This document shows positions 49,946-53,758 of a stretch of DNA of 64,000 bases, one piece after another. Source of the stretch: Flavobacteriales bacterium (GTDB taxonomy: Bacteria; Bacteroidota; Bacteroidia; Flavobacteriales_F; PHOS-HE28). The number at the start of each line of letters is the position of its first letter. Position 1 is the first letter of the stretch. Under the pieces are notes generated by a model. That model had not been told where the DNA came from. It was given only the letters and a program-made list of their open reading frames with translations, and made no database searches. The DNA is taken from NCBI GenBank assembly GCA_030584065.1, contig CP129489.1, positions 1,016,640 through 1,080,639 on the forward strand. The letters run 5' to 3'. The position numbers were made by a program, and so were the translations under genes.

Positions 49946-52174
49946 TCAATCCAGCGTGAAGCGCAGCCCGAGGAACCAGCGTCGGCCCTGCAGGGGCGCG
50001 TACATGTACGAGGCGTCGAAGGTGTGGCCGTGCGGGTTCGCCACCTGGTCATCAACCGACCGATCGAAGGGGTCGAAGGGCCGCATCAACGGGTCCTGCG
50101 GCACGAAGTCGAGCACGTTCTTCGCCCCGCCGTAGAGCTCAAGACGATTGTTGAGGCGGTGCTTCACCTGCAGGTTGATCAGCGTATACCATGGCGAATA
50201 CGCCGGACGGAAGTCGTTGGGCTGCACCGGCAGGCGCATGGGGCCGTACCACTGGCCGGTCAGGTCGACGCTGAGGCGGCGCGGCAGCTCCTGGCTCAAC
50301 GCGAAAGTGCCCTGCCAGCCCGGCGCGAAGTACTGGTCCTCACGTTTGGCGCCCTCCACGGTGTGCACGTCCATCCACGTGGCTCCCGCATTGGCCCTGA
50401 AGCCGCGGCCAAGGCGTGCCTCCACATTGAGGCTGATGCCCTGCGCGATCCCGTGGCCGTCGAGGTTGCGGTACAGGATGAGGTCCGGGTCGGTGTCGTA
50501 GTCCGGCAGGATGCGGTTGCTGAAGCGCGTGAAGAAGAGGGAGGCGTCGAGGCCGATGGAGCGCATCTCCCCGGTCCACTTGCGGACGGCATTGAGCGTT
50601 GCGTTCCACGAGCGCTCGGGCAGCAGGTCCTCGGTGATTACCACCTTACGCGCGCCCGTGAGCGCCGCATGGTCCTCGGTGAAGAGGTTCACCACCCTGT
50701 AGCCCGTGCCCGCGTTCGCGCGCAGGGTGAACCGGCCGGAGGGCGCGAACTTGTACGCGAGACGCGGTGACTGCACCAGGCCATGGTCGCGATCGTGATC
50801 GAGGCGGTAACCCATGAGCAGTACGCTCCGGTCGGTAACCGACCACTCATCCTGCAGGAAGATCCCGGGCAACGGCCGCCGCTCGGGGCTGTTTCGTACC
50901 TGTGGTGCCTCGCCGATCGCGGTGGCCGGGGTGTTGTCATCATAAAAGGTGCTCCGGTACGCCAGGCCTGCGAGCATATGGTGCCGAGCGGCACGGCGGT
51001 GCCTCCAGTACAGCTGACCGAAGAACACGCGCTGCACGGCATCGTAGGGCGTGGTGCCATACCAGCTGTCCTGATGATGCCCGTTGGCCGAGACCTGCAG
51101 CATCACCTGCCCAGGTACCGGCAACTGATACTGGCCGATGAGTTCCCAGCGCCGCGTGGCGATGGTCTCGCCGTAGATGCTGTCGCCCCCGGCGAAGGCC
51201 GGTGCCCAGTCCATCTCCCCGCCCCAGCGGTCCTCACCCACCACGCGCATCGCTAGGCTGGCCAGCCGCTTGTCGGGACGCTGCAGGGTGAGCTTCTCGA
51301 AGATGGAGAACCGCTTCTGCAGGGTGATATCGGTGAAGCCGTCGCTGTTCTCGTCGCGCGCCTTGTCGTACAGGTAACTGTTGATGCCCGTGAGGCTGCG
51401 CAGCCTCCCCTTGCCGAGTGCGAAGCCCAGATCGGTGTGGTGCTCCTGCCACGAGGTGGTCATCAGGTCGATGCTGAGGCGCGGGGCCAGCACGGGGTCC
51501 TTGGTGATCACGTTGATGATGCCGCCCATGGCCTCGCTGCCATAGAGGGCGCTGCCCGGCCCCTTCACCACCTCCACGCGCTCGATGAGGCTGGTGGGGA
51601 TGCCGCTCAGCCCGTACACCGTGCTCAACCCGCTCACGATGGGCATGCCGTCGATGAGCACGAGGGTGTAAGGGCCCTCCATGCCGTTGATGTGTATATC
51701 GCCGGTGTTGCACACGCTGCAGTTCAGTTGGGGGCGCACGCCGTTCACCATCCCCACGGCATCGAGCAACGCAGGCCCCGGGTTCTTCCGGAAGAGCGCA
51801 GGCGTGATCACCTCCACGGGCACGGGGCTGGCATCGCGCGACACAGGGGCCATGGTACCGGACACCACCACCTCTTCCAGCTCCGCAGCCGCGGGTTCGA
51901 GCACGATCACCGCCGCCTCATCGGCCGCCTGCACCGTGAGCGAGCGCCTGCGGTAGCCCACCGCGCTCACCGCCAGGCGCACCGGGCCGCAGGGAAGCGC
52001 CTCCAACATGAAACGGCCCTGGGCATCGGCCGCCGTGCCGCGCGACCGGCCCTCCAGCGCGATGCTGGCGAAGGGCACCGGGCCCTCCGGGCCGCGCACC
52101 GTGCCGCGCACCGTGCATTGGCCCGATACCCACACCGGGATGAGGCAGGGAAGGAGGGCGGCCCACCGGAACAT
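49946..52174 (-). CDS. TonB-dependent outer-membrane receptor
   Basis: The 742-residue protein has a signal peptide (1-18, PCLIPVWVSGQ) and a carboxypeptidase-regulatory-like domain (about 19-100). The plug domain shows VEVITPALFRKNPGPALLDA, LVLIDGMPIVSGLSTVYGLS, then IERVEVVKGPGSALYGSEAM, and a 22-strand barrel follows, ending RFTLD. The plug has a close cysteine pair, CSVC, followed by NTGDIHINGMEGPY. It imports a large or scarce substrate powered by TonB. Because it shares an operator with a DtxR/MntR regulator and a ZIP transporter, a metal complex is the likely cargo (inference). Confidence 0.93.
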   Translation of the reverse strand: MFRWAALLPCLIPVWVSGQCTVRGTVRGPEGPVPFASIALEGRSRGTAADAQGRFMLEALPCGPVRLAVSAVGYRRRSLTVQAADEAAVIVLEPAAAELEEVVVSGTMAPVSRDASPVPVEVITPALFRKNPGPALLDAVGMVNGVRPQLNCSVCNTGDIHINGMEGPYTLVLIDGMPIVSGLSTVYGLSGIPTSLIERVEVVKGPGSALYGSEAMGGIINVITKDPVLAPRLSIDLMTTSWQEHHTDLGFALGKGRLRSLTGINSYLYDKARDENSDGFTDITLQKRFSIFEKLTLQRPDKRLASLAMRVVGEDRWGGEMDWAPAFAGGDSIYGETIATRRWELIGQYQLPVPGQVMLQVSANGHHQDSWYGTTPYDAVQRVFFGQLYWRHRRAARHHMLAGLAYRSTFYDDNTPATAIGEAPQVRNSPERRPLPGIFLQDEWSVTDRSVLLMGYRLDHDRDHGLVQSPRLAYKFAPSGRFTLRANAGTGYRVVNLFTEDHAALTGARKVVITEDLLPERSWNATLNAVRKWTGEMRSIGLDASLFFTRFSNRILPDYDTDPDLILYRNLDGHGIAQGISLNVEARLGRGFRANAGATWMDVHTVEGAKREDQYFAPGWQGTFALSQELPRRLSVDLTGQWYGPMRLPVQPNDFRPAYSPWYTLINLQVKHRLNNRLELYGGAKNVLDFVPQDPLMRPFDPFDRSVDDQVANPHGHTFDASYMYAPLQGRRWFLGLRFTLD

Positions 52175-52178
52175 GCGG

Positions 52179-52225
52179 CGAAGGTAATCCCATTTTTAGA
52201 CATATCTAATTTTCATATACCTTTG
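52179..52225. promoter_or_regulatory. Shared operator with divergent, leaderless-type promoters
   Basis: TTAGACATATCTAA (52196-52209) is a palindrome with half-sites TTAGA/TCTAA. It lies between TACCTTCG on the minus strand (52186-52179, receptor gene) and TACCTTTG on the plus strand (52218-52225, regulator gene). The -7 elements end 4 nt and 6 nt before their start codons, so transcription should start at the ATGs. The palindrome occupies the expected -33 zone of both promoters. It is therefore the predicted binding site of the adjacent DtxR/MntR-type regulator. Confidence 0.6.
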
Positions 52226-52231
52226 CGCCGC

Positions 52232-52888
52232 ATGCTCACCCGCAGCGAGGAGGACCACCTCAAGGCCGTGCACGCGCTCCTGCAGGAGGGGGACCGCGCG
52301 CTCACGAAGGACATCGCCGCGCGGCTGCGCACCAAGGCCAGCAGCGTCACCGACATGCTGAAGCGGCTGGCGGGGAAGAAGCTGCTGAGGCACGAGCCCT
52401 ACTACGGGGCGCGGCTCACCGCGACTGGCGAGGCCATCGCGCTGCAGCTGGTGCGCCGGCACCGCCTGTGGGAGACCTTCCTCGTGGAGCGGCTCGGCTT
52501 CGGCTGGGACGAGGTGCATGAGGTGGCCGAGCAGATGGAGCATGTGGCCAGCGAGCAGCTCATCGACAAGCTCGACGCGTACCTCGGCCATCCGGCCTTC
52601 GACCCGCACGGCGACCCCATACCGGACAGGCATGGCCGGATCCGCGCGCGCAAGACGGTGCGGCTCAGCAGCTGCGCGCAGGGCCGCACCGTGCGCATCG
52701 CGGCGGTGAGCGAGACCACGGATGGGCTGCTGCGGCTGCTCGACGCGAAGGGGCTCCGCATCGGCAGCGTGCTCACCATCCAGGACGTGCACGCCTATGA
52801 TGGCAGCATGGACGTGAAGCCCCGCAGCGGGGCCGCCTTCAGCCTCAGCAAGGATGTGAGCCATCACCTGCAAGTGGAACCCGCATGA
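52232..52888 (+). CDS. DtxR/MntR-family metal-dependent repressor
   Basis: The 218-residue protein has three domains. The first is a winged helix (1-70, TKDIAARLRTKASSVTDMLK). The second is a dimer/metal domain with RRHRLWETFLVERLG and EVAEQMEHV. The third is a C-terminal FeoA/SH3-like domain (TVRIAAVSETTDGLLRLLDA, GLRIGSVL). By alignment with Bacillus MntR, the ligands Asp8, the His of RRH, and Glu, Glu and His of EQMEH are kept, whereas MntR Glu11 is Lys here. Asp rather than Met at the first ligand points to manganese over iron. It probably controls its own operon and the divergent receptor. Confidence 0.9.
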   Translation: MLTRSEEDHLKAVHALLQEGDRALTKDIAARLRTKASSVTDMLKRLAGKKLLRHEPYYGARLTATGEAIALQLVRRHRLWETFLVERLGFGWDEVHEVAEQMEHVASEQLIDKLDAYLGHPAFDPHGDPIPDRHGRIRARKTVRLSSCAQGRTVRIAAVSETTDGLLRLLDAKGLRIGSVLTIQDVHAYDGSMDVKPRSGAAFSLSKDVSHHLQVEPA

Positions 52889-53706
52889 AGGACCTGCTCG
52901 ATTTCTTCCAGCGCATCGACCCGGTGCATGCCGCGGTGCTGGCCACCACCTTCACCTGGCTGGTCACCGCCTCCGGCGCCGCGGTGGTCTTCCTCTTCAA
53001 GGACCTGCCCCGCAAATGGCTCGATGGCATGCTGGGCTTCACCGGCGGCGTGATGATCGCCGCGAGCTACTGGAGCCTGCTCGCGCCCAGCATCGCTCTC
53101 AGCGAGCGCATGGGGCTCCTTCCCTGGCTCCCGCCGGCCATCGGCTTCGCGCTGGGCGCCCTCTTCATCTTCGTGCTGGACCGCTACGTGCCGCACCTGC
53201 ACATCAACTTCGACCCCAGCGCCAGCGAAGGCGTGCGCACCCAGTGGCGCCGCACCACGCTCCTCATCCTGGCCATCACGCTGCACAACATCCCTGAGGG
53301 CCTGGCCGTGGGCGTGCTCTTCGGCGGCGTGGCGGCGGGACTGCCGGAGGCCACCATCGGCGGCGCCGTGGCCCTGGCCATCGGCATCGGGCTGCAGAAC
53401 TTCCCCGAGGGCATCGCCGTGAGCATGCCGCTTCGGCGCATGGGCCTTTCCCGCAGGCGCAGCTTCTGGTACGGCCAGCTCAGCGCCATCGTGGAGCCCG
53501 TGGCGGGCTTCGTGGGGGCGGTGGCCGTCCTGCACATGCAGGTGGTGCTGCCCTACGCGCTGGCCTTCGCGGCGGGCGCCATGATCTATGTGGTGGTGGA
53601 GGAGGTGATCCCCGAGACGCAGCAGGACAGGCACACCGACCTCGCCACCCTGGGCTTCATCGGCGGCTTCATCGTGATGATGGTGCTCGATGTGGCGCTC
53701 GGCTGA
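52885..53706 (+). CDS. ZIP-family divalent metal transporter (ZupT-like)
   Basis: The 273-residue protein has eight predicted membrane helices. It carries the ZIP metal-site motifs LHNIPEGLAVG (helix 4) and GLQNFPEGIAVS (helix 5), plus VVEEVIPET in helix 7. ZIP proteins import zinc, iron or manganese across the inner membrane. Its start overlaps the stop of the MntR-like gene (ATGA), so regulator and transporter are made together. Confidence 0.93.
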   Translation: MKDLLDFFQRIDPVHAAVLATTFTWLVTASGAAVVFLFKDLPRKWLDGMLGFTGGVMIAASYWSLLAPSIALSERMGLLPWLPPAIGFALGALFIFVLDRYVPHLHINFDPSASEGVRTQWRRTTLLILAITLHNIPEGLAVGVLFGGVAAGLPEATIGGAVALAIGIGLQNFPEGIAVSMPLRRMGLSRRRSFWYGQLSAIVEPVAGFVGAVAVLHMQVVLPYALAFAAGAMIYVVVEEVIPETQQDRHTDLATLGFIGGFIVMMVLDVALG

Positions 53707-53717
53707 GCGCATCGGGC

Positions 53718-53758
53718 TAGCTTCGCGCCACCCGCGTGCCGGTTGCAGCCGGCAACCG
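53718..53758 (+). promoter_or_regulatory. smpB promoter element and leader hairpin
   Basis: TAGCTTCG (53718-53725) matches TAnnTTTG with one mismatch. A 7-bp hairpin CGGTTGC (53740-53746) / GCAACCG (53752-53758) follows and ends 7 nt before the smpB ATG. Confidence 0.35.

Follow-up and report, generated by a model that had tools for sequence, protein, structure and literature searches.

The 64-kb stretch of DNA analysed here (the window) contains the gene for a TonB-dependent receptor and the gene for a DtxR/MntR-type metalloregulator, which diverge across a gap of 57 bp, and the question raised by this locus is whether a single operator in the gap could control both genes, and in response to which metal. 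The window is part of a 3.92-Mb genome assembled as one contig (~65% GC). The receptor (742 amino acids; 49946..52174 on the minus strand, start codon at 52172-52174) comprises a carboxypeptidase-regulatory-like domain, a plug and a barrel, with Pfam matches above cut-off, and its nearest solved chains are Cir/FepA/BtuB-type receptors. The regulator (218 amino acids; 52232..52888, plus strand) has a carboxy-terminal FeoA domain and is followed by the gene for a ZIP metal transporter (273 amino acids; 52885..53706, plus strand; PF02535), the start of which overlaps the regulator stop (ATGA). BbZIP-like solved chains match the ZIP protein, as does the NCBIfam ZupT model, the latter below its cut-off. 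A TAnnTTYG box also occurs at 53718-53725 on the plus strand, 12 nt past the ZIP stop. An smpB-like gene follows closely and may thus be transcribed from a promoter of its own, in which case the operon may end with the ZIP gene.

Within the gap, the -7 box of the receptor promoter (TACCTTCG; 52179..52186, minus strand) lies 4 nt before the receptor ATG, and that of the regulator promoter (TACCTTTG; 52218..52225, plus strand) lies 6 nt before the ATG at 52232. Between them is the candidate operator TTAGACATATCTAA (52196..52209, no strand), which is proposed to be common to both promoters. An earlier note on this DNA had described a TAnnTT(T/C)G element directly before each start codon and a palindrome between the two, and both elements and palindrome are indeed found there. 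The palindrome is imperfect, however, with 12 of its 14 positions pairing, and the start codons, which the note called facing, diverge.

The regulator and its promoters

The regulator belongs to the DtxR/MntR superfamily based on its DNA-binding domain (PF01325; 50.3 bits, cut-off 26) and its metal-binding/dimerisation domain (PF02742; 113.2 bits, cut-off 27), both of which score above the curated cut-offs, as does the FeoA domain (PF04023; 40.3 bits, cut-off 23). It is the sole PF02742 match in the genome and aligns with the solved structures of ScaR, SloR, IdeR, MntR and other DtxR-family members. The named NCBIfam MntR equivalogs are not reached (NF047407, 164 versus 350 bits; NF008273, 66.7 versus 153 bits; NF003025, 65.1 versus 138 bits), and the protein is therefore filed as a superfamily member and not as such an equivalog. 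In function, it probably works like MntR. Asp8, His77, Glu100, Glu103 and His104 are located at positions which we take to be those of the metal ligands in MntR and ScaR; the last four are invariant in 12 homologues, and Asp8 is replaced by Asn in some relatives. The ligand roles at these positions are drawn also from the available text of PMC4805248. The regulator was detected in 67 of the 78 genomes searched, and its nearest named relatives come from Flavobacteriales metagenome-assembled genomes.

Both -7 boxes conform to the Bacteroidota sigma-A consensus (TAnnTTTG), exactly in the case of the regulator and with one change in the case of the receptor, and they are the only TANNTTYG boxes in 52000-52450 (19 occur in the 64 kb, counting both strands). 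In Flavobacterium johnsoniae, transcription starts 4-5 nt after the -7 box, and there is little -33 signal (PMC6847099). Applied here, this spacing predicts a receptor start at 52174, the A of the ATG, and a regulator start at 52230-52231, that is, 1-2 nt before its ATG. Of the two starts that had been suggested to fall on the ATGs, the receptor start is thus retained, and is well supported by the spacing statistics, whereas the regulator is predicted to have a near-leaderless mRNA with a leader of 1-2 nt. In particular, the receptor box is exactly 4 nt from the ATG in 13 of 21 orthologous loci, this one included. The distance from box to start on the regulator side, 6 nt here, is mostly 4 to 25 nt in relatives, longer than here in many of them.

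Such closely spaced boxes form a distinct class in this genome. In 864 kb of its sequence (the window and 40 further 20-kb samples), 24 boxes precede, by 3-9 nt, the ATG of a reading frame of at least 120 codons, against 2.1 expected, and the distances have a sharp onset at 4 nt, an excess that a control motif lacks. The TAnnTTCG form is most frequent at a distance of exactly 4 nt from the ATG (11 cases), and the box form of the receptor promoter is enriched 4-9 nt before ATGs. Boxes at 4-9 nt also occur in other Bacteroidota, so that the class is not special to this organism: short- and longer-spaced boxes number 24 and 41 here, 24 and 84 in other class genomes (p = 0.05), and 30 and 94 in the named loci (p = 0.09 relative to this genome). 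These counts, in which the excess here is marginal, weaken the case for an exceptional abundance of leaderless genes in this lineage.

The candidate operator

The operator motif is conserved well beyond this locus. Of 39 same-genus loci, counting this one, 38 have TTAGN6CTAA upstream of the regulator gene, and the motif lies within 300 bp upstream of that gene in 74 of 80 named Bacteroidota loci, the latter a count without a reversed-pattern control. The genus logo is TTTAGRC(T/A)(A/T)GYCTAAW, and its strict form, from which this genome's own site departs and which therefore misses that site, is found at 19 distinct places in 45 genus genomes with no control matches. Comparison with regulator coordinates assigns 15 of these places to the regulator; the remaining four comprise two before orthologues of this receptor, one before a di-haem oxidoreductase gene and one (L219, in G006) that was set aside because it overlaps a reading-frame end. 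The conserved operator overlaps the promoter of regulator and importer, which is the arrangement of an MntR-type autoregulated uptake switch. In a limited search of the open-licence literature we found no defined operator for this Bacteroidota DtxR/MntR family, and an earlier description elsewhere is possible. The phylum-wide operator is a more general result than the local switch.

Several observations in relatives may be added. The divergent layout is shared by cultured relatives, among them Kordia zhangzhouensis (L120), Winogradskyella psychrotolerans (L134) and Mangrovimonas sp. (L139). The di-haem oxidoreductase (PF06537) site, present in one same-genus genome (L222:1501-1516; G042:C103:24213-24228), makes that gene a possible extra target of the regulator. 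In Algoriphagus and relatives (L083, L084, L086 and L103), two operator-type sites lie 76 bp apart upstream of the regulator, which suggests one site for each gene of a divergent pair. Genome G018 contains two regulator-ZIP loci, L036 and L003, with 83% and 60% identity to this regulator and with an operator and a receptor at each; it is possibly a mixed assembly.

Within this genome the site is essentially unique. The looser pattern TTAGNNNNNNCTAA occurs at just 2 places in 3.92 Mb, compared with 9 for the reversed control, which puts the probability of a chance match in the 57-bp gap at ~3e-5. A weight matrix trained on same-genus sites, with the own site left out, gives that site 30.1 bits and the next best place 10.1 bits in the 864 kb scanned (22% of the genome). 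The pattern put forward in the earlier note, TTAGANNNNTCTAA, has one exact occurrence in the genome; with up to one mismatch there are 4 matches, as in the control, and matches with two mismatches are fewer than in controls. The regulon envisaged by the note, with sites before other metal genes, was accordingly rejected. The second TTAGN6CTAA place (genome position 1959952; 10 bits) was dismissed as a target, no metal gene being evident in the surrounding ORFs. Likewise set aside was a match at 2828038 (L204:1501-1516), TATAGACTTGTCTATA, a perfect 16-bp palindrome whose flanking genes lack an evident metal link and which is possibly the site of another regulator.

Does the one site serve both promoters? 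Taking the last G of each box as -5, the operator spans about -34 to -21 of the regulator promoter and about -35 to -22 of the receptor promoter, so that by coordinates the -33 positions of both fall within it. In 25 of 38 loci the -7 box of the regulator promoter follows the end of the operator by 8-10 nt; on the receptor side, where a slightly relaxed box was used for the measurement, the spacing is 7-11 nt in all 21 loci with a box and 9 nt in 12 of them. Of particular interest is the natural REARRANGEMENTS, in which ~220-480 bp separate receptor and regulator (L016, L020 and L027) and each start has its own motif beside it. In two further genomes no receptor was found beside the regulator, within 1.5 kb upstream in G036 and within the 280 bp between regulator and contig end in G011, and each genome has, on another contig, a receptor orthologue (62-64% identity) with the motif before its ATG. 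The copies kept by separated genes indicate that the motif is tied to receptor and regulator independently, and they are the strongest argument for a single site acting on both genes at this locus. On these comparisons, a single operator shared by both promoters is very probable.

Alternative explanations and the signal metal

A palindrome in this gap could be a chance AT-rich feature, since the promoters are AT-rich in this genome of 65% GC, and such palindromes are likelier there than elsewhere; the conservation of its sequence and position across the phylum, the absence of control matches to the strict motif in 45 genomes and the copies at separated receptor and regulator genes make this extremely improbable. 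A related view, in which the operator controls the regulator-ZIP side only and the receptor merely adjoins it, draws on the 69 of 80 named loci in which the motif is present but no divergent TonB receptor is. We regard it as very unlikely in light of the motif copies carried by widely spaced receptor genes and by receptor orthologues on other contigs, and of an operator spacing as tight on the receptor side as on the regulator side. Thus the shared operator that the earlier note placed over both promoters, and the autoregulation and receptor-ZIP coupling that it read from it, are supported by footprinting and by natural rearrangements in which separated promoters each keep a copy; taken as a whole, its observation is confirmed and its interpretation holds in part, the exceptions being the breadth of the regulon and the regulator start on the ATG. 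As regards the transcripts, starts further upstream or processing could give both genes ordinary leaders, in keeping with mapped Bacteroidota transcriptomes, in which leaderless mRNAs are a small minority (5.5% in F. psychrophilum; leaders under 10 nt make up 3.7% in B. thetaiotaomicron). These low fractions keep the leaderless claim a prediction. The lack of any other TANNTTYG box in 52000-52450, the exact 4-nt spacing in 13 of 21 receptor orthologues and the existence, in this genome and others, of a distinct set of boxes that precede ATGs by 4-9 nt render ordinary leaders unlikely, and leaderless or near-leaderless starts are the likely outcome.

The identity of the metal, on which the earlier note did not decide, is suggested by both residues and neighbours. 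In named relatives, the regulator adjoins Nramp (MntH), ZnuA-type (MntABC-type), ZIP or FeoB genes, mostly the MntH and MntABC types, whereas a search of this genome found no Nramp and no ZnuA member, and its FeoB locus and single Fur locus, also searched, are without the operator motif. These features, together with the MntR-like ligand positions, point to Mn(II) as the main signal, which we consider fairly likely; the simplest reading is that Mn is imported by the ZIP protein in this organism, iron being dealt with separately. ZIP transporters carry Zn, Fe, Mn and Co (PMC9334652), the nearest solved relatives of the receptor are siderophore, colicin I and B12 receptors, and FeoB stands beside the regulator in one relative (L136), all of which would suit the same switch with Fe(II) or Zn(II) as the signal and a receptor that imports an iron or zinc chelate. 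This version is improbable given the neighbours and motif-free loci just described, the Glu100 at the primary site in place of the Cys of DtxR and PgMntR, and the Asp8 of this clade.

Proposed switch and known systems

We propose, with considerable confidence in the explanation as a whole, a metal-uptake switch under autoregulation. With enough Mn(II), and possibly also Fe(II), in the cytoplasm, the metal-loaded regulator dimer would bind TTAGACATATCTAA. Since the site overlies each of the two divergent sigma-A promoters from about -35 to -21, RNA polymerase would be blocked at both, and neither the regulator-ZIP operon nor the gene for the TonB-dependent receptor would be transcribed. As the metal falls, both promoters would open, giving a receptor mRNA that begins on the ATG and a regulator mRNA that begins 1-2 nt before it. 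Binding, the metal, repression and the transcript ends are what we infer in this scheme. A distance of 56 bp separates the two predicted start sites, at which two polymerases probably exclude each other as well. A broader proposal, which we hold only tentatively and at somewhat less than even confidence, is that the same DNA serves as upstream region and operator of two leaderless promoters, that repression and polymerase exclusion together set the balance between receptor and importer-regulator, and that TTTAGRCnnGYCTAAW is a phylum-wide motif kept with one regulator family while importers (MntH, MntABC-type, ZIP, FeoB) were exchanged.

The analysis provides, at base-pair resolution, a candidate operator for a DtxR/MntR family that occurs across Bacteroidota, a motif that can be used to annotate metal-uptake genes and substrate-unassigned TonB receptors across the phylum. 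It also describes a compact case in which outer- and inner-membrane metal import would be coupled through promoters predicted to be leaderless, in a phylum that lacks Shine-Dalgarno sites.

Both -7 boxes fit the known Bacteroidota sigma-A promoters, with transcription expected 4-5 nt after the box; the difference is that the start codon here is at, or 1-2 nt after, the predicted start site, whereas the median leader in F. psychrophilum measures 24 nt and that in B. thetaiotaomicron 32 nt (PMC6847099, PMC9723704). The streptococcal Mn regulators ScaR and SloR (3hrs, 5cvi) are the nearest full-length solved homologues and share the DNA-binding, metal and FeoA-like domains, but they are from Firmicutes and have a Cys in the region of the second metal site, where this regulator has Asp124, and the promoters here are of the Bacteroidota type. 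The MntR/mntH/TBDR-pTFP module of Stenotrophomonas maltophilia (PMC13217887) likewise has an MntR-controlled TonB-dependent receptor beside mntR and a bidirectional promoter region, there common to mntR and mntH. It differs in using separate 25-bp MntR boxes for receptor and importer, in having MntH instead of ZIP and in the 75 bp that lie between box and receptor start codon, so that the receptor is not leaderless; operator and promoter type are different from those described here.

PgMntR (PG1044) of Porphyromonas gingivalis, as described in the available text of PMC4805248, is a Bacteroidota DtxR-family protein with FeoA that is encoded with a Mn transporter under its control and binds DNA upstream of its own operon, as is predicted here. 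Whereas this regulator has a single FeoA domain and, in its primary metal site, Glu100, PgMntR has two such domains and Cys108, and its partner is the FeoB-type FB2 instead of a ZIP protein; that text defines no operator and involves no TonB receptor. According to the same text, PgMntR needs no metal to bind its promoter DNA and the binding is weakened by Fe(II), so that the sign of the response and the metal may differ here. PgMntR is the closest characterised case in Bacteroidota, and the locus is a compact form of a well-known type of regulation.
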